A stretch of DNA of 64,000 bases from Halalkaliarchaeum sp. AArc-CO (GTDB lineage: Archaea; Halobacteriota; Halobacteria; Halobacteriales; Haloferacaceae). Both the position numbers and the translations under genes were made by a program. The notes under the pieces were generated by a model. The model searched no databases and was not told the origin of the DNA. It saw only the letters and a list, made by a program, of their open reading frames with translations. Below are positions 4,969 through 25,859 of the stretch, piece by piece; position 1 is the stretch's first letter, and each line of letters opens with the position of its first letter. The DNA lies in NCBI RefSeq assembly GCF_024972735.1, contig NZ_CP087723.1, positions 434,001 through 498,000 of the forward strand, given 5' to 3'.

Positions 4969-7191
4969 ATGAACGAAGTTCAACTCGAAGTGGCGAAGGC
5001 GTACCCGAACGACTCGGGGCGTGGCATCGCCCGTCTCGACCCAGACACGCTTTTGCATCTCAAACTCTCCCCCGGCGACATCATCGAAATCGAAGGGGGT
5101 GAAACGACCGCAGCGAAGGTGTGGCGCGCGGACCGGCAGGACTGGAACACCGACACGGTCCGCGTCGACGGCTTCACACGCCAGAACGCCAATGTCGGCA
5201 TCGGCGAGCGCGTGACGATCCGGAAGGCAGACGCCGAGAAGGCCGACAAACTCGTGCTCGCACCCCCCGAGGAGGCGTCAGTGCAGTTCGGCTCCGACGC
5301 CGCCGGCATGGTGAAACGCCAGATCCTCAAGCGGCCGGTCGTCGAGCGCGACATCGTCCCGGTGATGTCGAGCACGAACCACCCGTTCATGCGCTCGCCC
5401 GGACAGGCGATCCCGCTGATCGCCGTCTCCACAGAGCCCGAGGGCGTCTGTCTCATCACCGAGGACACCGAGGTCGAACTCCGCGAGGAGCCGATCTCCG
5501 GCTTCGAAAAGACCGGCGGTGGGATCACTTACGAGGACATCGGCGGCCTGCAAAACGAGATCCAGCGCGTCCGGGAGATGGTCGAGCTGCCGATGAAACA
5601 CCCCCAGATCTTCAAGAAACTGGGGATCGAGCCGCCCCAGGGGGTGTTGCTCCACGGCCCGCCCGGGACCGGCAAGACGCTGCTTGCGAAAGCGGTCGCC
5701 AACGAGACCTCAGCGTCCTTCTTCTCCATTGCGGGGCCGGAGATCATCTCCAAATACTACGGCGAGAGCGAACAACAGCTCCGCGAGATCTTCGAAGACG
5801 CCAAAGAGGAGTCGCCGTCGATCATTTTCATCGACGAACTCGACTCCATCGCGCCCAAACGCGAGGACGTCACCGGCGAGGTCGAACGCCGTGTCGTCGC
5901 CCAGCTGCTCACGATGATGGACGGCCTCGAGACCCGGGGGCAGGTGATCGTCATCGCGGCGACGAACCGCGTCGACTCCGTCGATCCCGCCCTGCGCCGT
6001 CCGGGTCGGTTCGACCGCGAGATCGAGATCGGCGTCCCCGACGAGGCTGGCCGCAAGGAGATCATGCAGATCCACACGCGCGGGATGCCGCTGTCGGACG
6101 ACGTGAGTCTGGACCGGCTCGCCGACGAGACCCACGGCTTCGTCGGCGCCGACATCGAGAGCCTCACCAAGGAGGCGGCGATGAAGGCGCTGCGGCGCTA
6201 CCTCCCGGAGATCGACCTCGACGAGGAGGACATCCCCCCGAGCCTCATCGACCGGATGATCGTCAAGCGCACCGACTTCGACGGGGCACTCACGGAGGTC
6301 GAGCCCTCCGCGATGCGGGAGGTGCTCGTCGAACTGCCGAAGATCACCTGGGACGACGTCGGCGGGCTCGAGGGCGCGAAACAGCAGGTCAAAGAGAGCG
6401 TCGAGTGGCCCCTCTCGAAGCCCGAGAAGTTCGAGCGGATGGGGATCCAGGCGCCCAAGGGCGTGCTGCTGTACGGGCCGCCCGGGACCGGCAAGACGCT
6501 GATGGCGAAAGCGGTCGCCAACGAGACCAACGCCAACTTCATCTCGGTGCGGGGCCCGCAGCTGCTCTCGAAGTGGGTCGGCGAATCCGAGAAGGCGATC
6601 AGACAGACGTTCCGGAAGGCCCGACAGGTGAGTCCGACGATCATCTTCTTCGACGAGCTGGACTCGCTTGCCCCCGCCCGGGGGCAGGACGCCGGCAACA
6701 ACGTCTCCGAGCGGGTCGTAAACCAGCTGTTGACCGAACTCGACGGCCTCGAGGAGATGGGCGAGGTGATGGTGATCGGCGCGACCAACCGTCCGGACAT
6801 GATCGATCCGGCGCTGATCCGGTCTGGCCGGTTCGACCGGCTGGTGATGGTTGGCTCCCCCGACGAGGAGGGTCGCGAACAGATCCTCAAGATCCACACC
6901 CGCGAATCGCCGCTCTCGCCGGACGTGAGTCTGCGCGAGATCGCCGAGATAACCGACGGCTACGTCGGCTCCGACCTCGAGTCGATCGCCCGCGAGGCCG
7001 CCATCGAGGCGCTTCGGGAGGACGACGACGCCGAGGTGGTCGAGATGCGACACTTCCGGCAGGCGATGGATTCGGTCCGCCCGACGATCACCGACGAGAT
7101 CCTCAGCTATTACGAGGAAATCGAAGACCAGTTCCGGGGCGGCGGCGCGGACGCGATGCGGGAGCGCGGCGGCCGGATCGGCTTCCAGTAA
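4969..7191 (+). CDS. cdc48: Cdc48/p97-type AAA ATPase
   Basis: 740 residues with the full archaeal Cdc48 (VAT) layout: an N-domain (about 1-190, beginning [20 protein letters not shown]), a first AAA module with Walker A GPPGTGKT (Lys236) and Walker [10 protein letters not shown], and a second AAA module with GPPGTGKT (Lys509) and IIFFDELDS. It is a hexameric unfoldase that feeds substrates to the proteasome and remodels complexes. The Met at 4969 fits the conserved N-domain; longer in-frame extension upstream is arginine-rich and unlike the family. The C-terminus is short, after the final helix YYEEIEDQF. Confidence 0.97.
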
Positions 7192-7283
7192 CGCGACCGA
7201 TCGCCGGATCTTCCGGTGGAATCGGTTCGGTAGATCCACTTCGGTGGGGGAAAGTTGAAGTCCGACAGTCACAACCACCGAAC

Positions 7284-8363
7284 ATGAAGTGTGCCCTCGT
7301 CGGAGTCGGCCAGGCCGGCGGCAAGGTGACGACCGCCCTCGCGAACTTCGACACCCGCATGGAGTTCGGCGCCATTCGCTCGGCGCTGGCGGTCAACACC
7401 GCCACGGCCGACCTGCAGCCCCTCCCTCTCGACACCGTACTGATCGGCCAGGACCGCGTCAACGGCCACGGCGTCGGCGGCGACAACGAACTCGGCGCCG
7501 AAGTGATGGAGTCGGATCTCCCGGAGGTAATGGACGCGCTCGACGACAAGATCACCTCCGAGACGGAGGCGGTGTTCGTGATCGCCGGGCTGGGCGGCGG
7601 CACCGGGTCGGGCGGCGCGCCGGTGCTCGTTCGCCGGCTCAAGCGGATCTACAACGTGCCCATCTACGCGATCGGGATCCTTCCCGGTCAAGACGAGGGT
7701 GCGCTGTACCAGGCGAACGCCGGGCGATCGCTCAAGACGGTCACACGGGAGGCCGACTCGCTGCTTCTGGTCGACAACGACGCCTGGCGCGACAGCGGCG
7801 AGAGCGTCCAGGAGGGGTTCGACGCGATAAACAACCACATCGCCCAGCGGCTCGGGCTCCTGCTTGCGGCCGGGGAGGCCGTCGAGGGCGTCGGCGAGAG
7901 CGTCGTCGACTCCAGTGAGGTGATAAACACGCTCGCGACCGGCGGTATCTCCGCGCTGGGATACGGCGCCGCAGCCAGCGGCGAGACGGCCGAAGACAAC
8001 ATCAACACGGTGACGAGCACGACCCGCAGCGCGATGTTCACCGGGATGAGCCTCCCCGGAGCGAGCAAGGCCGACACGGCGCTTCTGGTCGTCGCCGGGC
8101 GTCCGGAGGCGATCCCTCGCAAGGGCGTCGAGCGCGCACGCCGGTGGCTCGAGGAGGAGACCGGCAGTATGGAGGTGCGCGGCGGCGACTTCCCGCTGTC
8201 TACGGATCGGCTCGCGTCGCTGATCCTCCTCGGCGGGATCGAACAGTCCGACCGGCTCGAACGGTTCATCGAGCGCGCCCGCGAGGCCGTCGAGATCGCC
8301 GACGAGGAGCGCGCCGACCCCGCAAAAGCGTTCGACAACGAGGCGATCGAGGACCTGTTTTGA
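7284..8363 (+). CDS. cetZ: CetZ-family tubulin/FtsZ-like GTPase
   Basis: 359 residues. The nucleotide-binding start MKCALVGVGQAGGKVTTALA, the tubulin signature GLGGGTGSGGAP (Gly104-Gly111) and the NELGAEV and ILPGQDEGALYQANAGRS segments are those of CetZ rather than FtsZ1 or FtsZ2. CetZ proteins polymerise at the membrane and control cell shape and motility in haloarchaea. Several paralogues usually exist; which one this is cannot be told here. It lies 92 bp after cdc48 on the same strand, in a probably separate unit. Confidence 0.9.
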   Translation: MKCALVGVGQAGGKVTTALANFDTRMEFGAIRSALAVNTATADLQPLPLDTVLIGQDRVNGHGVGGDNELGAEVMESDLPEVMDALDDKITSETEAVFVIAGLGGGTGSGGAPVLVRRLKRIYNVPIYAIGILPGQDEGALYQANAGRSLKTVTREADSLLLVDNDAWRDSGESVQEGFDAINNHIAQRLGLLLAAGEAVEGVGESVVDSSEVINTLATGGISALGYGAAASGETAEDNINTVTSTTRSAMFTGMSLPGASKADTALLVVAGRPEAIPRKGVERARRWLEEETGSMEVRGGDFPLSTDRLASLILLGGIEQSDRLERFIERAREAVEIADEERADPAKAFDNEAIEDLF

Positions 8364-8367
8364 TCGG

Positions 8368-8979
8368 TCAGGCGTCCTCGCCGTCTGACGTCCGATCCTC
8401 GCTGCCGTCCGGATCCTCGCTGTCGTCCCACCCGTTCCGGTAGCGTTCCTTTGCGGACTCGAAGGACAGCTCCTCCAGCTCGCGCCCCCGGCGGGTTTCT
8501 CGTTCGGCGATCGCCTCCGGATCCGGGTTGACGTCGTCGTCGATCCGGGCGAACGAGCCGTGGACTTTCGCGTGACACCAGCGACACAGGCCGACGGTGA
8601 GTTCGTGGGACGTCCCGTCCGTGGCCCTGTCGGCGTCTCCAGCGCGGGAGCCCGGATTCGAGCCGCCGTACGAGAGGTGATGTTCCTCGATCAGCGGCCG
8701 GACGCTCTCGCCGGCGAGCCGGCGCTCCTCGAGGCCACACCGGATGCACTGTTTCCCGTCGGTGGTCCACCGGTACTTCGGACACGCCTGCCAGTTTCCC
8801 GCCTCGCCGACGTGACACTGGTAGTCGTCGCTGCGCCGTGCGTCGGCGAACTCGGGGTCGTCGCCGGCGCGTTCGAGCGCGAACCGGCACCGCCCGTCGT
8901 CTGTGAGGTGATCACAGATCCCCGCGATCGCGTACGGGTCGTCGACGCCGACCGGCGTGCCGGTGGGTGTTCGTTTCAT
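8368..8979 (-). CDS. HNH endonuclease-like protein
   Basis: 203 residues. The nuclease core has CIRCG (zinc), EEHHLSYGG (the HH of the HNH motif) and [11 protein letters not shown] (second zinc pair plus the final His). An N-terminal cysteine/histidine cluster ([25 protein letters not shown]) suggests a further metal site. The C-terminal 45 residues are acidic and probably disordered. It may be a haloarchaeal-specific family (I recall DUF7097) of unknown role. Stops of this gene and cetZ are 4 bp apart, tail to tail. Confidence 0.8.
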
Positions 8980-9028
8980 GGGTCGATCGCTCCGTCGCCG
9001 CGTCCATCGCCCAGTTCGAAACGGCGTC

Positions 9029-9037
9029 ATTTATACC
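9029..9037 (+). promoter_or_regulatory. TATA box of aspS
   Basis: ATTTATACC, 23 bases before the ATG at 9060. The spacing implies a leaderless or nearly leaderless aspS transcript, typical of haloarchaea, and supports the chosen start. Confidence 0.6.
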
Positions 9038-9059
9038 GTGCGGCCATGAACCGACGTGT

Positions 9060-10364
9060 ATGCAAGATCGGACCTACGCGGCCGACGCCGAGCCCGGGAG
9101 TCGGGCGACGGTGGCCGGCTGGGTTCACGAGATCAGAGACCTCGGCGGGATCGCGTTCCTCATTCTCCGGGACACGACCGGCCGAATCCAGGTGAAGTTC
9201 GAGAAAGACGAGATGGACGACGAGCTCGTCGAGACGGGGCTGTCCGTCTCCCGGGAGTCGGTCGTCGCGGTCACCGGCGGCGTCGAGGAGGAGTCCCGGG
9301 CGCCGACCGGCGTGGAGGTCGTCCCCGACTCGATCGAGGTGATCGCACCCGCGGACACCGACCTCCCGCTGGACCCGTCGGGCAAGGTCGACGCCGAACT
9401 CTCGACCCGGCTGGACAACCGGACGCTGGACCTTCGCAAACCCGACGTGAAGGCGATCTTCGAGGTGCGCGCGGAGATCCTCCGGGCCGCCCGCGAGGAG
9501 CTGCGCTCGGTCGGCTGTACCGAGATCAACACACCGAAGATCGTCGCCACCGGCACCGAGGGCGGCACGGAGCTGTTCCCGATCACCTACTTCGGCGAGG
9601 AGGCGTTTATGAACCAGTCGCCCCAGCTGTTCAAGCAGTTGATGGTCGGCTCCGGGCTCGAGCGCGTCTTCGAGATCGGTCCGATCTTCCGGGCCGAAGA
9701 GCACAACACGCCACGGCACCTCAACGAGGCGACTTCGATCGACTTCGAGGGCGCCTTCTGTGACCACTCGGACGCGATGGACGTCTGCGAGTCGGTCGTT
9801 ACGGGCGTCTACGAGTCGGTCGCGGAGAACTGCACCGAGCAGCTGGAGGCGCTCGGGATCGCCGACGAGTTCTCGGTTCCAGACGGGGAGTTCCCCCGGC
9901 TGACCTACGAGGAGGCGATCGAGCGGATCAACGCCACCGGCGCGCTCGACGAGCAACTCGTGTGGGGCGACGACCTGCCGACGGAAGGCGAGCACGCGCT
10001 CGGCGAGGAGGTCGGCGGCCACTACTTCATCACGGACTGGCCCTCCGAGATCAAGCCGTTCTACATCAAAGACTACGACGACGACGAGACCGTCTCGACG
10101 GGCTTCGACCTGATGCACCCGCGGATGGAGCTCGTCTCGGGCGGGCAGCGCGAACACCGCCACGACCGTCTCATCGAAGGGTTCCAGCAGCAGGGGCTCG
10201 ACCCCGAGGAGTTCGAATACTACACGAAGATGTTCAAGTATGGGATGCCCCCGCACGCCGGCTGGGGACTGGGCGGCGAGCGTCTGGTGATGACCCTCCT
10301 GGATCTGGACAACATCCGCGAGGCCGTCATCTTCCCGCGCGACCGACAGCGCCTCTCGCCGTGA
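9060..10364 (+). CDS. aspS: Aspartyl-tRNA synthetase, archaeal type
   Basis: 434 residues, normal for the archaeal enzyme. The N-terminal OB-fold ([20 protein letters not shown]) binds the anticodon. The class II core shows motif 2 [20 protein letters not shown] and motif 3 [14 protein letters not shown]. It charges tRNA-Asp; many archaeal versions also charge tRNA-Asn for transamidation by GatCAB, and sequence alone does not decide that here. The start follows a TATA box by one leaderless spacing. Confidence 0.96.
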
Positions 10365-10392
10365 GAGGGGACGGCAGTGAGACGACGAAGCG

Positions 10393-11247
10393 ATGACGAG
10401 ACCGACGGCCTCGACGGCGTTCGCCCCGGGACACGTTACTGCGTTTTTTAGCATTCACCGGGGCGAATCACCGTCTGCGTCCGGCTCGCGGGGCGCGGGC
10501 CTTGCACTTTCCGAAGGGGTCACCGCGACCGTGCGCCCGGCAGCGGATAAAAACGAGAGGAAAACTCAGATCCGCCTGAACGGAACGCGGGTGACGATCG
10601 AGGCGGTCGAACACGTCCTCGCGGAGCTCGGCGTCACGGCCCGAGTTCGACTCGAGACGCCGCTGCCGCCGGGGGCCGGCTTCGGCGTTTCGGGCGCCGC
10701 GGCGCTCGCGACGGCGCTTTCGGCGAACCACGAGTTCGGCTGCGGGCGGACCGAAAACGAGCTCGTCGGAATCGCCCACGCCGCCGACGTCGAAGCGGGG
10801 ACCGGCCTGGGGGACGTGGTCGCACAGGCTCGCGGCGGGATTCCGATCCGGGTGGAGCCCGGCGCTCCCGGCTACGGCAGCCTCGACGGGATCCCGGACT
10901 GCCGACGCGTCGAGTACGTCACCTTCGGCGAGCTGTCGACGCCGGACGTGCTCTCGGGGGAGACGGAGGCGCTGTCTGCGGCCGGCGAGTGCGCACTCAC
11001 TGGGCTGTTGGACGATCCAACCGTCGAGACACTGCTGGCGGAGGGGCGCCGCTTCACTCGCGAGATCGGCGTCGCGGCCCCCGAGGTCGCGGAGGCGATC
11101 GACGCGGTCGACGACGCCGGGGGGGAGGCGTCGATGGCGATGCTGGGTCGGAGCGTCTTCGCGCTCGGGACGGGGTTGACCGACGCCGGCTACGATCCGA
11201 CGATCTGTCGGACGCATTCGGCGGGCGCGACACTCGAGCCCGAGTAG
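10393..11247 (+). CDS. Pantoate kinase (GHMP family)
   Basis: 284 residues. The GHMP ATP-binding motif is PPGAGFGVSGAAALATALS, preceded by an N-terminal AFAPGHVTAFFSI typical of archaeal pantoate kinase (PoK). PoK phosphorylates pantoate to 4-phosphopantoate, the archaeal detour in CoA synthesis that replaces PanC. The gene faces the next enzyme of the pathway, phosphopantothenate synthetase, tail to tail with 35 bp between stops, which backs the assignment strongly. It begins 28 bp after aspS and may share its transcript. Confidence 0.92.
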   Translation: MTRPTASTAFAPGHVTAFFSIHRGESPSASGSRGAGLALSEGVTATVRPAADKNERKTQIRLNGTRVTIEAVEHVLAELGVTARVRLETPLPPGAGFGVSGAAALATALSANHEFGCGRTENELVGIAHAADVEAGTGLGDVVAQARGGIPIRVEPGAPGYGSLDGIPDCRRVEYVTFGELSTPDVLSGETEALSAAGECALTGLLDDPTVETLLAEGRRFTREIGVAAPEVAEAIDAVDDAGGEASMAMLGRSVFALGTGLTDAGYDPTICRTHSAGATLEPE

Positions 11248-11282
11248 CAACCTCCCGTGTCCGCTGTCCGACCGCCGGAGGA

Positions 11283-12044
11283 CTACGCCCCGTCGTCGGC
11301 GAACGATCCGGTTCTGATCGTCCGTTCGGCCGCCTCGAGCGCGTCTTCGGGGTCGAACTCCCGGACGATCGCCTCGAGTTCCTCCCGCGGTCGGTCCCGC
11401 AACGCCCGCGCGTGCCGGGTCACATTCGGCACCGCCCGGAGGACGTTGTCGACGATCGGAACGTCGGCGACCCGGGCGGATCGGGAGCCGGGGTTCAGGT
11501 CGATCACGATCTCCGTTTTGCTCAGGTCCGAAAGCGCGGCGGCCCGGTCGCCGTCCTCCAGCGGGACGAGGACGACGTCGGCGGCGGCGATGCCGTCGGC
11601 GTCGACTTTCGCCCGTTCGTGTGCAAGTCCCGGAATCCGAGCGTCCGCCGCGAGGCCCTTCACCTCCGTCGCACCGTGTTCCCGGAGGTAGTCGGCGATC
11701 GCCTGCATGCGCTCGGCCGTCCGGTTGAACAGGTTCACCTCGAGGTCGGCGTCGACGACGTCGGCGAGTTCGACGATTTCGCCGGGGACCAGGGCTGCGA
11801 CGTTTCCGTTGACCGAAAGCACCGGCCGGTCGGCGAGAAGCAGGTGGGCGGCGGCCGCCCGGGCGGCCAGATCGGCACTCTCGATCGTGCGTTCGCCAAG
11901 CAGGTAGTCGAACGCCTCGCCGCGGCCCTGGGCGATGAGCCCCTGGCGACTCGTGATCCCCCGCTCGACGCCCCCCTCGATCCGGTGACGGGTCACGAGC
12001 GACTCGTATCTGGGGTGGTCCTCGGGGATTTCTACGTCTGTCAC
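11283..12044 (-). CDS. 4-phosphopantoate--beta-alanine ligase (phosphopantothenate synthetase)
   Basis: 253 residues starting at a GTG (12044), giving VTDVEIPEDHPRYESLVTRH; the frame is open further upstream but that part is not family-like. Conserved stretches include SVNGNVAALVPGEIVEL and VEVNLFNR-like VNLFNRTAERMQAIADYL, and IDLNPGSRSARVADVPIVDN, diagnostic of archaeal PPS (DUF137/COG1701). It joins 4-phosphopantoate with beta-alanine using ATP in CoA synthesis. It pairs with the convergent pantoate kinase gene. Confidence 0.93.
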   Translation of the reverse strand: MTDVEIPEDHPRYESLVTRHRIEGGVERGITSRQGLIAQGRGEAFDYLLGERTIESADLAARAAAAHLLLADRPVLSVNGNVAALVPGEIVELADVVDADLEVNLFNRTAERMQAIADYLREHGATEVKGLAADARIPGLAHERAKVDADGIAAADVVLVPLEDGDRAAALSDLSKTEIVIDLNPGSRSARVADVPIVDNVLRAVPNVTRHARALRDRPREELEAIVREFDPEDALEAAERTIRTGSFADDGA

Positions 12045-12182
12045 GGCGGAACGTTTGCCCCCGACGTACAAGGGGTTTGCTGGACGGCGCGAACGACTCC
12101 GGCTCGCGGTTCCAGCCGGTAGTGTGCGGTTTTCATCGCTTCGACGGACGGTTTTTATTGTGGTGCCCGATATGCCACCAGT

Positions 12183-12755
12183 ATGTACGAACGAGCGTCC
12201 GCCGTGGACGTGTACCGGCAAGCGCTTCCAGTGATCGTCGTCAGCCTCGTTGCCGGACTGTTCGCAGGGACGATACTCGGGAGCGAACCGATGCGCGCCG
12301 GAATCGAAAGCGTCCCCGGGATCCTCGTTTTGCTCCCTGCGTTTCTGGCGACCCGGGGCGGCGTCTACGGCTCGCTGGGCGCACGACTCTCCAGCGGTCT
12401 CCATCAGGGGGTCATCGAACCACGGTTTACCTTCGACCGGCGTCTCTCGAACGCCGTCGTCGCTTCCTTTATCAACGGGATGGTCGTCTCCGTGTTCATC
12501 GCGGTCGTGGCGTTTCTCGTCCTCTGGATCGCCGGCGGGGGTGGAAACTTGTTGCAGCTGGTCGGAATCATGATCGTCGCGGGCTTTCTGTCCGCGGTTC
12601 TCATGCTGTCTACGCTCGTTACGGTCGTCTTCGTCGGCTACCGGCGAGGCCTCGATCCTGACAACATCGTGGGACCGCTGGTCACGACGCTCGGCGACGT
12701 GTTCGGCGTCGTCTTCCTTTTGGTCGCCATCTATCTCGTGGGGCTGTTCCTATGA
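12183..12755 (+). CDS. MgtE-type magnesium channel, first membrane half
   Basis: 190 residues containing only an MgtE integral-membrane domain with five hydrophobic segments ([20 protein letters not shown] and IMIVAGFLSAVLMLSTLVTV among them). The MgtE pore signature ILVLLPAFLATRGGVYGSLG and the GLDPDNIVGPLVTTLGDVFG motif are present. The cytoplasmic N and CBS domains of bacterial MgtE are absent. Its stop overlaps the ATG of the next gene (ATGA), so the two halves should be made together as a heterodimer. A TATA-like TTTTTATTG lies about 30 bases upstream. Confidence 0.9.
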   Translation: MYERASAVDVYRQALPVIVVSLVAGLFAGTILGSEPMRAGIESVPGILVLLPAFLATRGGVYGSLGARLSSGLHQGVIEPRFTFDRRLSNAVVASFINGMVVSVFIAVVAFLVLWIAGGGGNLLQLVGIMIVAGFLSAVLMLSTLVTVVFVGYRRGLDPDNIVGPLVTTLGDVFGVVFLLVAIYLVGLFL

Positions 12756-13420
12756 GCGACGACTATGCGGGCGACGACCTCACGGGGCTGAGTGACTCGC
12801 TGGGGGAACTCTACGAGAAGTTCTCCGAGGAGGACCACCCGGCCGACCAGCTCGCCCCGAAACCGATCGACCACGACTGGCAGATCAAACCGATGGTGCT
12901 GACGATGGTGCCGCTGCTCGCCGGGCTGTCCGTCCTCCAGATGGTTTCGGGCTCCGTTCTCGAATCGTTCGAGGAGGTCCTGCTCGCGAACCCGGCGCTT
13001 TTGATCCTGGTTCCCGTCCAGATCGGAACCGCCGGCAACCTCGGATCGATCATGTGTTCCCGGCTGTCGACACAGTTGCATCTGGGAACCTTCGAGTTCG
13101 CGGTCGACAACCCGTCGATCCGGTCGAACTCAGGAGCGATCATCGGGCTGGGGGTCACCGTTTTCGCGCTTGTCGGCGTCGCCGCCTGGGCGATCGGTCG
13201 CGCTCTCGGAGGGACGCTCGGGCTCGTGGAGGTGCTCACGATCTCTCTGGTCAGCGGAACGCTCCTTGCCGTCTTCGTCGTCGTCGTGAGCCTGATCGCC
13301 GTCTCGACGTCCTATCGACTGGGGTACAACCCCGACGACACGACGATCCCGGTCGTGACGAACGTCTGTGACATCACGGGGGTTCTGATCCTCTTTGCGG
13401 TCATTACGGTCGTCCTTTGA
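12752..13420 (+). CDS. MgtE-type magnesium channel, second membrane half
   Basis: 222 residues. After ~45 polar residues, five hydrophobic segments make up a second MgtE domain. The pore motif here reads LLILVPVQIGTAGNLGSIMC and the second motif NPDDTTIPVVTNVCDITGVL. It overlaps the first half by 4 bp and, like it, lacks CBS gating domains. Together the two would make the ten-helix unit that bacterial MgtE builds as a homodimer. Mg or Co transport is expected but ion choice is not provable here. Confidence 0.9.
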   Translation: MSDDYAGDDLTGLSDSLGELYEKFSEEDHPADQLAPKPIDHDWQIKPMVLTMVPLLAGLSVLQMVSGSVLESFEEVLLANPALLILVPVQIGTAGNLGSIMCSRLSTQLHLGTFEFAVDNPSIRSNSGAIIGLGVTVFALVGVAAWAIGRALGGTLGLVEVLTISLVSGTLLAVFVVVVSLIAVSTSYRLGYNPDDTTIPVVTNVCDITGVLILFAVITVVL

Positions 13421-13527
13421 TATCCTGCCTGTCAACTGCGGCGCCGTCACTGCTGACTCTCGCAGTCGGCTCCGCGTCGGTCCGCCGTAGCACTCACTCT
13501 TAACCGGTCGCGGACGAACTACGCGAC

Positions 13528-14706
13528 ATGGAAGAGATCGCCTACCGCTCCCGGAACGTCAGGGAGACACTCGTCGAGCTGAAGAACATCTCGGAGCTGT
13601 CGGTCGATCTGGGGTATGCAGCTGCTCTCTACGACTATCCGCTGTTGGCAGAGGAGGTCCTCGAGCTGGAGGCCCGTGCCGACTCCCTGCAGTATCCCGC
13701 GAAGATCGCGTTGATGCTGGCGGCAAAACGCTCTTCGGACGCCGAGCAGCTGGTCGGGATCGTCCAGGTCGTCGAGGCCGCGGTCGGGATCACGAACGCG
13801 GCGGCCGACATCGCTGCGATCGTGACAAACGACATCGGTCTCCCGACGGAGGTCCGGGGATCCCTCCCGACTGCAGACGAAGTTCTCCTGAAAGCGACGG
13901 TCGGCGCGGACAGCGAGGCGGCCGGACGAACGCTCGGGGACCTGTCGTTCGAGACGGAGGCGGGTGTAAGCGCGATCGCGATCCGTCGCGGGAACGGGTG
14001 GAATATCGATCCGAACGAGGAGGCGATCCTCGAGGTCGGGGACGTCGTCATCGGACGTGGTCCGGAGGCGGGCGTGCGGACAGTCCGAGAGATGCTAACC
14101 GGCGATCCCGACGCCACCGGGGATCGACACAGTGACGACGTCGACGAGCTCGGCCGCGCCGCCGACATGCTCGTCGATCTGAAGGACATCTCCGAGCTTG
14201 CGGTCGGGCTCGCCTACGCAGCGGTGCTTTTCGACGACGACCAGCTCGCCGCGGAGGTGCGCGACCTGGAACGCCAGTCGGACGCGCTGAAAAACGAGGT
14301 CGAAACGCTGGTGATCGAGGCGGGCGACCGGGTGAGCGAACCCGCCAGCCTCCGGGGACTGCTCCATCTTGCGACGGCCTCGGAAGCGATCTGTGACGCG
14401 GCGATCCGGATCGCAGACATCGTGTTGCGGGACGGCAGTGTCCACCCGGTGTTCGGCCAGGCGATCGGGGACAGCGACGAACTCATCACGACGACGGCGG
14501 TCGAACCGGGGAGCACGCTCGCGGGGGAGACCCTCGGCGGAGTCGAACTGGAAGAGGCGACCGGGGTGGCGATCATGGCGATCCACCGGGGAAACAACTG
14601 GATCCTGGCACCGACCGGCGAGACGCAGCTTTTCGCCGACGACGTGCTCATCGCCCGCGGGCCCGAAGACGGCGCAAACACCGTTCGCGAGTGGGCCCGA
14701 GAGTGA
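13528..14706 (+). CDS. Doubled PhoU-like/RCK_C (TrkA-C) regulatory protein
   Basis: 392 residues formed of two homologous halves of about 195. Each has a helical PhoU-like part (VELKNISELSVDLGYAAALY; VDLKDISELAVGLAYAAVLF) followed by a TrkA-C/RCK_C domain (VSAIAIRRGNGWNIDPNEEA; VAIMAIHRGNNWILAPTGET). RCK_C domains bind small ligands and gate channels. Lying 107 bp behind a split MgtE that lacks its own gating domains, it is a good candidate for the missing regulatory subunit. That role is inference; the domain calls are firm. Confidence 0.85.
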   Translation: MEEIAYRSRNVRETLVELKNISELSVDLGYAAALYDYPLLAEEVLELEARADSLQYPAKIALMLAAKRSSDAEQLVGIVQVVEAAVGITNAAADIAAIVTNDIGLPTEVRGSLPTADEVLLKATVGADSEAAGRTLGDLSFETEAGVSAIAIRRGNGWNIDPNEEAILEVGDVVIGRGPEAGVRTVREMLTGDPDATGDRHSDDVDELGRAADMLVDLKDISELAVGLAYAAVLFDDDQLAAEVRDLERQSDALKNEVETLVIEAGDRVSEPASLRGLLHLATASEAICDAAIRIADIVLRDGSVHPVFGQAIGDSDELITTTAVEPGSTLAGETLGGVELEEATGVAIMAIHRGNNWILAPTGETQLFADDVLIARGPEDGANTVREWARE

Positions 14707-23683: not shown

Positions 23684-24370
23684 TCAGTCACCCCCCACGG
23701 CAAGCGGTTCGACGTCTTCACCGATGAACAGTTGCCGGACCTCCGAGAGCGCCTCGAACTCCGCGAGCACGGCGACCCTGTCGCCGGGTTCCAGCGAGTA
23801 ATCTCCCAGCGGGATGCCCAGCGACTCGCCCTCCTTCCCGAACGCGAGGATCCGGGCCTCCGCCGGGAGTTCGGTCTCGTCGAGGCTGTAGCCGTACAAA
23901 GGGGACGACTCGGGGATCGTGATCAAAAGGACCTGGAGGTTGGAGGCGATGTCGGCGATCGCCTGAATGTTCCCGCCCAAAAGCGCGTTCTTCGCGCCGA
24001 TCGCGCCCAGCCGTTCGGGATAGACCACCTCGTCGACCTCGTCGGCGTACTCCCTGTAGATGTCTTCCCTGTAATCCTCGTCGATCCGCATCACAGTCCG
24101 GCAGCCGTGGTGTTTGGCGATCATACAGGCGGCAAAGTTGGCGTTCAGGTCGCTCGTCAGCGCGCCGACCGCGTCCGCGGTCTCGAGTTCGGCCTCCTCG
24201 AGCACCGTCTCCCGGGAGCCGTCGCCCTCGACGACCTCGAAGCCTGCCTCACGGACTCGATCCGCGGTTTCCGGATCGCGTTCGACGACCACGATCTCGT
24301 GGCCCTCCTCGGCGAGTACGCGGGCCGTCCGCAGTCCGACCCGCCCACCACCAATGATAACGTAACGCAT
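23684..24370 (-). CDS. TrkA-N/TrkA-C potassium-channel regulatory protein
   Basis: 228 residues. A Rossmann RCK_N domain opens with MRYVIIGGGRVGLRTARVLA (GxGxxG) and VVVERDPETADRV, and an RCK_C domain is about 145-228 (SLDETELPAEARILAFGKEG). It binds NAD(H) or ATP and should gate a K+ uptake system of the Trk/Ktr kind, but no membrane subunit is in this window. The coupled RAM protein may add ligand sensing. The next gene upstream is divergent, with 114 bp between starts. Confidence 0.92.
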   Translation of the reverse strand: MRYVIIGGGRVGLRTARVLAEEGHEIVVVERDPETADRVREAGFEVVEGDGSRETVLEEAELETADAVGALTSDLNANFAACMIAKHHGCRTVMRIDEDYREDIYREYADEVDEVVYPERLGAIGAKNALLGGNIQAIADIASNLQVLLITIPESSPLYGYSLDETELPAEARILAFGKEGESLGIPLGDYSLEPGDRVAVLAEFEALSEVRQLFIGEDVEPLAVGGD

Positions 24371-24484
24371 ACCCGTGACATGAACCCCCGTGGAAATAAC
24401 CGTTGCCCCGAAGGCATCTCGTCGTTCCCCCCGAGTCGCCACACCGGGGGAAGGCTTTTGCGATATCGTGTCGTTCGGTAACAT

Positions 24485-24718
24485 ATGGTACACGCATTCG
24501 TCATGGTGAAAGCTGACGTCGGGGAGGCAGCGACGATGCTCGATCGGATGGACTCGGTCGAGGGTGTTACGGAGGCGCACGTCGTGGCCGGCGACTACGA
24601 TCTGATCCTCGAACTCGAGGCACCGGAGGTGTACGACGTGTTGCAGGTGACTGCAAACGAGGTGCAGGCCCTGTCCGGGATCACGGACACGAAGACGTAC
24701 GTCTCGATGGAGGATTGA
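24485..24718 (+). CDS. Stand-alone Lrp/AsnC ligand-binding (RAM) domain protein
   Basis: 77 residues, MVHAFVMVKADVGEAATMLD, with AHVVAGDYDLILELEAPEVY and a final TDTKTYVSMED. It has the same fold and length as the RAM protein at 23.5 kb but is clearly diverged from it. It also lacks a DNA-binding domain. It is transcribed divergently from the TrkA-N gene, so trkA is flanked by two RAM-only genes. The start follows a TATA-like TTTTGCGATATCG by about 20 bases. Confidence 0.9.
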   Translation: MVHAFVMVKADVGEAATMLDRMDSVEGVTEAHVVAGDYDLILELEAPEVYDVLQVTANEVQALSGITDTKTYVSMED

Positions 24719-24782
24719 CGTCCCAATGGAGGATTGGTCTGCCCGTTCGTAGCCCGAACGAACTGGAAACGGCGTGTTCTCC

Positions 24783-25859
24783 TCAGTCCAACTCGAGTTC
24801 CTGTGGATCGTGCTCCTCGAGGAGCGCCTCGAGTTCGGACCGCTGTTTCTCCTGGGTCGGCGTCGGGTCCGCGTACACGTGATCGAACAGGTCGTCGGGA
24901 TCCGGGAGGCCGGCGTCCTCGGCGGTCTCGATCGCCGCCGCGATCTCCTCGTTCGCCTCCTCGCGGAACCGCTCGACCGTCTCGTCGTCGAGGACGTCCT
25001 CCTCGCGAAGGAACGCCTCGAATCGCTCGAGCGGGTCCCGCAACCGCCAGTCGGGGTGATCCGGCTCCTCGTCCCGGTACCGGGAGGGATCGTCCGCAGT
25101 GGTGTGGGCTCCCCGCCGGTAGGTGAGCGCCTCCACGAGTACAGGGTTTCCGTCCCGGGCAGACGCCAGCGCGTCCGCAACCGTCTCCCGAACGGCCAGG
25201 GGGTCGTTACCGTCGACTCGGACGCCGTCGATCCCGTAGGCGTCGGCCTTGGCCGCGATCGATTCGCTTGCAGTCTGGCGATCCGCCGGCAGCGAGATCG
25301 CCCAGCCGTTGTTCTCGCAGAAAAACACCGTCGGTGCGTCGAAGACGCCGGCGAAGTTCACGCCCTCGTGGAAATCCCCCTCCGAGGTCGCGCCGTCGCC
25401 GAAACAGACGAGCGACGCCCACTCCTCCTCGAGGTAGTTCGCGGCCATTCCCGCACCGGCGGCGTGAGGAATCTGGGAAGCGATCGGGATGGCCTGTGGG
25501 AAGACGGGGACGTCGTGATCCGAGTGGTACTCCGCACGCCCGCGGCGGAACAGGAGAATGTCACTCATCGGAACGCCCCGGGCGATCTGCAGTGCGTTCG
25601 AGCGGTACGTCGGGAACAGCCGGTCTTCCGCAGCCATCGCGTGGGCGGCGCCGACCTGTGCGGCCTCCTGTCCCGCGAACGGCGGGTAGCCGGACATCCA
25701 CCCCCGCCGCTGGAGCGCGACGGCGCGCTCGTCGAACCGTCGGGCCCGGACCATGTCGCGGTAGAGATCCCTCGCCGCCGCGGCGTCGTACCGGCTGTCC
25801 GACAGCGACCCCTCACCGTCGCCGACGACGGTGTGGAACTCGTCGGTGAAAGCGTCCAT
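24783..25859 (-). CDS. 2-oxoacid dehydrogenase E1 component, alpha subunit
   Basis: 358 residues. Thiamine diphosphate motif: GDGATSEGDFHEGVNFAGVF...ENN. Other family marks are YPPFAGQEAAQVGAAHAMAA and HTTADDPSRYRDEEPDHPDW. The alpha subunit decarboxylates a 2-oxoacid together with a beta subunit. No beta, E2 or E3 gene is beside it, so the substrate (pyruvate or branched-chain oxoacid) and even the partner are unclear. Haloarchaea have several such clusters; this appears to be an isolated copy. Confidence 0.9.
   Translation of the reverse strand: MDAFTDEFHTVVGDGEGSLSDSRYDAAAARDLYRDMVRARRFDERAVALQRRGWMSGYPPFAGQEAAQVGAAHAMAAEDRLFPTYRSNALQIARGVPMSDILLFRRGRAEYHSDHDVPVFPQAIPIASQIPHAAGAGMAANYLEEEWASLVCFGDGATSEGDFHEGVNFAGVFDAPTVFFCENNGWAISLPADRQTASESIAAKADAYGIDGVRVDGNDPLAVRETVADALASARDGNPVLVEALTYRRGAHTTADDPSRYRDEEPDHPDWRLRDPLERFEAFLREEDVLDDETVERFREEANEEIAAAIETAEDAGLPDPDDLFDHVYADPTPTQEKQRSELEALLEEHDPQELELD

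Follow-up and report, generated by a model that had tools for sequence, protein, structure and literature searches.

A tandem PhoU-RCK_C protein accompanies split and fused MgtE pores across an archaeal phylum

The window, a 64,000-nucleotide stretch from the 3.18-Mb, two-contig genome of Halalkaliarchaeum sp. AArc-CO, whose nearest named relatives in the searches were haloarchaea, carries two overlapping genes, here called mgtE-A and mgtE-B, followed on the same strand by a gene for a protein here called C (Table 1). An earlier note, made from the letters of this DNA, had read the first two genes as MgtE membrane domains only that overlap by 4 bp and lack the N and CBS domains of bacterial MgtE, and the third as a doubled PhoU plus RCK_C protein. 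This reading was borne out. A and B contain one PF01769 domain each (80.6 bits, E 1.5e-22 for A; 70.5 bits, E 2e-19 for B; cut-off 27.6), and the Pfam scan of the two proteins found no domain beyond PF01769, neither MgtE_N (PF03448) nor CBS. The stop codon of A and the start codon of B share the letters ATGA, a 4-bp overlap that is also the commonest spacing among the A/B pairs measured (13 + 33 of them). C begins after a gap of 107 bp. Pfam recognised in it two TrkA_C (RCK_C) and two PhoU stretches (E 5.5e-29 and 5.8e-10) in the order PhoU, RCK_C, PhoU, RCK_C, and a single half-profile hits the protein twice, both times with E <1e-60, which makes C a true tandem duplicate. The region upstream (window 8967-12404) holds genes for an aspartate--tRNA(Asn) ligase and a pantoate kinase-like protein (below cut-off), with a 4-phosphopantoate--beta-alanine ligase on the opposite strand. 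A further RCK_C (TrkA_C) gene is found about 9 kb downstream of C (window about 23684-25180, strand -).

Table 1. Genes and features of the two mgtE gene sets. Positions are those of the window, except for the second set, which is numbered within its own stretch (L005).
Feature	Position	Strand	Description
mgtE-A	12183..12755	+	190 aa; MgtE membrane domain only; counterpart of the N-terminal half of fused archaeal MgtE
mgtE-B	12752..13420	+	222 aa; MgtE membrane domain only; resembles the C-terminal half of fused archaeal MgtE
ATGA shared by A stop and B start	12752..12755	+	Read from the sequence
C, tandem PhoU-RCK_C protein, proposed regulatory subunit	13528..14706	+	392 aa; PF02080 x2, PF01895 x2
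C, PhoU unit 1 (residues about 11-100)	13558..13827	+	Three-helix unit in model; half-profile match
C, RCK_C domain 1 (residues about 119-191)	13882..14100	+	PF02080 match; model
C, PhoU unit 2 (residues about 206-300)	14143..14427	+	PF01895 at residues 217-299; model
C, RCK_C domain 2 (residues about 317-392)	14476..14703	+	PF02080 at residues 324-389; model
Second set, C	7375-8580	+	Points towards B and A
Second set, B	8612-9250	-
Second set, A	9250-9879	-

All three genes are present again in the same genome, 1.5 Mb from the first set and in a rearranged order, and B and A of this second set overlap too. The existence of a second set indicates that the three-gene arrangement is no accident. 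The two A genes are separated by a tree path of 0.88 and the two B genes by one of 1.09; judged from their sequences, both pairs of paralogues are old and show no recent copying. A search of the whole host genome for MgtE_N gave zero matches. Separate CBS-domain partners, which according to the earlier note would speak against its reading, have no adjacent candidate at either mgtE pair: the genome contains 35 CBS matches, none of them near a pair, and the closest lies about 54 kb from the second one.

The relation of A and B to fused archaeal MgtE was investigated with 90 A/B pairs and 25 fused proteins recognised by script. At the pore motifs, the A consensus reads tRGniyg.lGsRlgsalHqG and DPDn.vgP.vtT.GD, and the B consensus gGnlGsil.aRlssalHlG and DPDDtvIP.vt...D. 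On comparison of the consensus sequences, the N-terminal half of the fused proteins is like A and the C-terminal half like B, and the order A-B of the split genes is the same as the N-C order of the fused domains. A tree was built from 104 rows whose reading frames had been checked. In it, A and the fused N-halves occupy one side (99/97; 100% of 200 bootstrap trees), and a separate side (100/100) consists of 14 long MgtE proteins. B and the fused C-halves yielded no single clean side; two changes are needed there, and the program issued a long-branch warning. A constraint joining A with the fused C-half was disfavoured at p-AU 0.016, in a test that was picked after a tree had been viewed. The comparison describes A and B as two old and distinct half-families. 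Proteins that occur fused in some species usually work together in one complex. Because A and B are fused in some species they are read here as a heterodimer, and most likely make up one heterodimeric, SLC41-like pore.

The pore aspartate motif is kept in 90/90 A and 90/90 B proteins. The motif P(D/A)X4PX6D was found in both halves of the window pair, and PX6GN in B, with GG instead in A. At this position, GG occurs in 10 of the 90 A genes, and these ten form a group of paralogues with the A of the window among them. GD is read in 38 of the 90 B genes, which belong to Methanosarcinaceae-like loci; the two halves thus vary at different spots. A model of a fused MgtE from an ANME-2 record (L136) reached a pLDDT of 83.1 and a pTM of 0.81, with an input alignment (A4) in which A and B rows were both aligned to the fused N-half and only six rows covered the other half. 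A second aligner ranked MgtE first and matched the model to the pore domain of TtMgtE over 177 of 178 residues (Z 15.4). Foldseek gave no match to the model at E 0.001 or better, and by E-value placed MATE transporters above MgtE. The modelled helices run as five long ones, one more and five more; an extra crossing would orient both halves alike, as in the MgtE dimer. A PDB sequence search with A alone found no match, the PDB search with profile A4 retrieved bacterial MgtE only, and the cut-off of NCBIfam TIGR00400 (232.75) was not reached, the scores being 19.2 and 24.2 bits.

The closest solved relative of C is PH0236 from Pyrococcus horikoshii (PDB IDs: 1vct, 2bkn; profile E 7.7e-66), which is 36-38% identical to the units of C; 1vct matches residues 2-195 with E 1e-36. 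PhoU and TrkA_C are both present in 44/44 relatives of C. In the model of C (44 sequences, pLDDT 83.5), the two PhoU units jointly match a whole PhoU protein, 4q25, with Z 22.7 over 197 residues, and the RCK_C domains match known RCK_C folds at Z 10-14, reaching about 14 with KhtT and MthK. Based on these matches of the PhoU core and of RCK_C, C looks like two PH0236 units joined in one chain. A nucleotide-binding RCK_N (TrkA_N) domain gave no match in C at E up to 1, and the score against NCBIfam phoU_full (TIGR02135) was 11.8 bits, below the cut-off of 130.25. The domains of C are of kinds found in regulators of channels and transporters, such as the RCK_C relatives KtrA/KtrC, KhtT and MthK; the earlier note had described them as gates of other channels.

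Both domain types of C offer candidate ligand sites. Within the PhoU units, ten acidic residues (E23, D27, E43, E48, D94, E223, E243, E248, E286, and D290) are invariant in 44/44 relatives. In PhoU, ExxxD motifs are metal-binding. The ExxxD positions of unit 2, E248/D252 and E286/D290, are kept; in unit 1 of the window protein E48/D52 is kept, but the other position reads V86/N90, residue 86 being E or D in 40 of the 44 relatives. For the RCK_C domains, binding of c-di-AMP is described for BusR and several K+ transporters in the available text of PMC8517857. In an alignment with the c-di-AMP pocket of BusR, the hydrophobic positions of C are similar and the polar positions differ. The position of BusR His160 is T or S in 41/44 C relatives (unit 1), and where KtrA, KtrC, and KhtT have an Arg, 43/44 have E or D (unit 1). 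As a ligand of the RCK_C domains of C, c-di-AMP is attractive but, given this mixed comparison, no more than possible.

Gene neighbourhoods were surveyed from both sides. Around C, the best 80 C loci from a scan of named genomes were used, a set that leans to Methanosarcinaceae. MgtE lies within the flank of C in 53 of these best 80, at a gap of 18-290 bp in 50 of the 53, and among the remaining 27 some stop at a contig edge. The 53 linked loci fall into six arrangements. Split MgtE stands before C on the same strand in 36 loci and on the other strand in 3, and after C on the other strand in 5 and on the same strand in 2, one of them via a spurious overlapping ORF (L155); fused MgtE stands before C on the other strand in 6 loci and on the same strand in 1. 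That C and MgtE stay close although so variously arranged points to a function in common. Around MgtE, 62 loci were used, namely the two sets of this genome plus 60 further stretches: C is within reach in 20 and outside the fetched stretch in 42, and for most haloarchaeal and all fused-MgtE stretches of this set it is located elsewhere in the genome. Adjacency of C and MgtE is frequent and not constant. At the locus L057 (4909-8573, genome G168) a single C is flanked by two A/B pairs. A split pair adjoins a CBS-type MgtE in L066 (6267-8875) and in L162 and L171 (about 6200-8820), this protein having about 380 aa with CBS and MgtE domains, and the genome concerned no MgtE_N match; both pore types can be neighbours.

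Co-occurrence was then scored in a sample of 245 genomes of the phylum, taken with a completeness filter of 90. MgtE was searched by PF01769, and the C family by an alignment of 16 C proteins (A1) at E 1e-30 or better. Paired or fused MgtE was defined as at least two PF01769 matches per genome, a genome-level count and not a comparison place by place. Both traits were found in 206 genomes, MgtE only in 2, C only in 3, and neither in 34, giving a phi of 0.92 (n=245), where phi and Fisher's test ignore kinship. The linkage of the three genes that the earlier note had put forward therefore stands as a genetic coupling across the phylum, with 5 discordant genomes, whereas its constancy does not, MgtE and C being neighbours in 53 of the best 80 C loci and 20/62 MgtE-chosen loci. 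The three-gene system is phylum-wide and no local oddity. The 6 genomes with a single MgtE match are all without C, and the listed genomes of families f16 and f18 are all without both traits. Families f23 and f24, considered as a rough check on kinship, contain genera of both kinds, and there C and the MgtE pair change together. MgtE matches are present in the laboratory species Haloferax volcanii and Methanosarcina acetivorans.

All five discordant genomes are drafts of 90-95% completeness. In G147 and G155, drafts of 95% completeness with a fused MgtE, C was not found even at a lax cut-off. The number of genomes with both traits is corrected to 205 once G164, which carries a decayed locus, is moved. 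This genome has two MgtE matches, both of the strong, long type, and the one that was read out (L009, 33-1911) carries a CBS domain. Of its C, a single PhoU and one truncated RCK_C are left (L181, 1243-2406), adjoining the CBS-type MgtE, and an A/B pair was not found in the genome. The Natrialba loci L162 and L171 read C, B, A, CBS-MgtE, an order from which one deletion could remove half of C plus B and A. A deletion of this kind may account for the state of G164; being one event, it supports the coupling of C and the pair mildly.

Two control families were counted in the same genomes. TrkH was chosen as the K+ transporter likeliest to share an RCK partner; it is present in 232/245 genomes, with 199 having both TrkH and C, 33 TrkH only, 10 C only, and 3 neither (phi 0.06). 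MgtE_N is present in 26/245 genomes, 12 with and 14 without C (phi -0.38 against C), and absent from 197 of the 209 C-bearing genomes, so that the built-in sensor domain is commoner in genomes missing C. With TrkH flat and MgtE_N opposite, C tracks the pore that lacks a sensor, rather than K+ transport. In several genomes (e.g. G001, G018, and G046) MgtE_N occurs without any PF01769 match; the domain also exists separately from the MgtE pore.

C is very probably coupled in function to the paired or fused MgtE pore. We propose, with a probability of roughly 0.6, that it gates the pore directly as a cytosolic subunit, taking the place of the N/CBS sensor. The A/B heterodimer would stand in for the homodimer of bacterial MgtE and for the single fused chain of other archaea, and C would be the dedicated soluble regulatory subunit of this Mg2+ pore. 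Its two PhoU units could form one PhoU-like core beneath the pore. The PhoU core with its conserved carboxylates, the RCK_C pair, or both would bind the signal, in the simplest case Mg2+ or another divalent ion, and binding would alter the open probability of the pore, instead of MgtE N plus CBS. Besides a divalent ion bound at the PhoU core, the RCK_C pair might provide a second input. The assignment of a divalent metal as the signal read by C is tentative. In halophilic and methanogenic archaea, the flow of Mg is probably placed under a detachable regulator.

C could also belong to the same Mg2+ physiology and act at a distance, never contacting the pore. It would then pass a signal on, to a kinase or a transcription factor, as PhoU does when phosphate is sensed, or control the degradation of A/B. 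PhoU proteins work through protein contacts in signalling, and the position of C elsewhere in the genome at 42 of the 62 MgtE-chosen loci would suit such a role. However, the adjacency of C and MgtE survives six arrangements, and the nearest solved RCK_C relatives are mostly regulators of channels or transporters, although BusR is a transcription factor; action at a distance is unlikely on this evidence. Another question is the direction of transport. Haloarchaea live in high Mg2+ and Na+. Rather than an influx channel, A/B might be an exporter of Mg2+ driven by Na+, the function reported for human SLC41A1, with C controlling export. The CBS-free double MgtE is the nearest described kind to SLC41 in the available text of PMC9276622, but the retention of the MgtE pore aspartate motif in every A and B of the 90 pairs counts against export, which we regard as possible without favouring it.

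Regulation of K+ transport by C, which would accompany MgtE merely via shared descent, is suggested by the RCK_C homology to KtrA, KtrC, KhtT, and MthK and by the title "putative potassium channel related protein" under which PH0236 is deposited in the PDB. Yet the association of C is with paired MgtE and not with TrkH (phi 0.92 against 0.06), and it is MgtE that adjoins C, no K+ transporter having been noticed among those neighbours that were annotated, which were some only. A role in K+ transport is accordingly very unlikely. We give hardly any weight to a separate CBS or MgtE_N protein that senses Mg2+ in trans for A/B while C has a different job: the 35 CBS matches of the host genome provide material for it, but they keep their distance from both pairs, and MgtE_N is missing from the host as well as from nearly all C genomes (197/209).

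Direct gating by C is the reading that we prefer. Its widest form, in which A/B is gated in trans by C, C senses a divalent metal plus a small molecule, SLC41 shares this descent, and PH0236-type proteins are Mg2+ regulators, is rather doubtful as a whole. If it were true, A/B and the fused form would be the ancestral stock of the CBS-free SLC41 transporters of animals, C would be a regulator lost or replaced in the SLC41 lineage, and PH0236-type proteins would regulate Mg2+ rather than K+. The available texts of PMC13022745 and PMC9276622 describe the regulation of CBS-free MgtE/SLC41 as open, and C would be a concrete, testable candidate. The PH0236-type crystal structures were released in 2005-2006 under titles such as "unknown function", and the coupling would suggest a role for this family.

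A and B bear a probable likeness to animal SLC41. They have the membrane domain and the pore aspartate motif in common with bacterial MgtE (TtMgtE, PDB IDs: 2zy9 and 4u9l; PF01769 with MgtE_N and CBS; TIGR00400), but are without MgtE_N and CBS and would pair unlike subunits where bacterial MgtE pairs identical ones. Gating of MgtE is Mg2+-dependent and proceeds via N, CBS and the plug helix, as described in the available text of PMC8104411. CBS-free double MgtE in archaea is already known, since it is described in PMC9276622. In the text available from that source, double PX6GN and P(D/A)X4PX6D motifs are restricted to Archaea, choanoflagellates and metazoa, the archaeal and metazoan double-motif forms are without CBS, and the SLC41 family might be regulated differently. 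Like A plus B, these archaeal double MgtE/SLC41 proteins have two MgtE domains and no CBS, A corresponding to the N-half; they differ in being one chain where two overlapping genes are found here, and the available text of PMC9276622 mentions no dedicated PhoU-RCK_C partner. The available text of PMC13022745 likewise reports two MgtE domains in some prokaryotic proteins and a CBS-free algal protein whose regulation is unknown, and states that eukaryotic CBS-free proteins need structural studies. A publication tying a PhoU-RCK_C partner to MgtE was not found in the available texts of the open-licence literature; one paper lists MgtE, TrkAH, and Pst/PhoU, and treats them as separate systems.

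On the side of C, the PhoU-RCK_C unit is common with PH0236 (PDB IDs: 1vct, 2bkn, 2bko, and 2bkp), but the crystal chain contains one unit and C two in tandem. With KtrA/KtrC, KhtT, MthK, and BusR, C has the RCK_C fold in common, whereas it is without RCK_N, carries RCK_C on a PhoU core and would have a Mg2+ pore as its partner. The paired PhoU units of C match the whole fold of PhoU from the Pst phosphate system, whereas in C they are interrupted by, and then trailed by, RCK_C domains.
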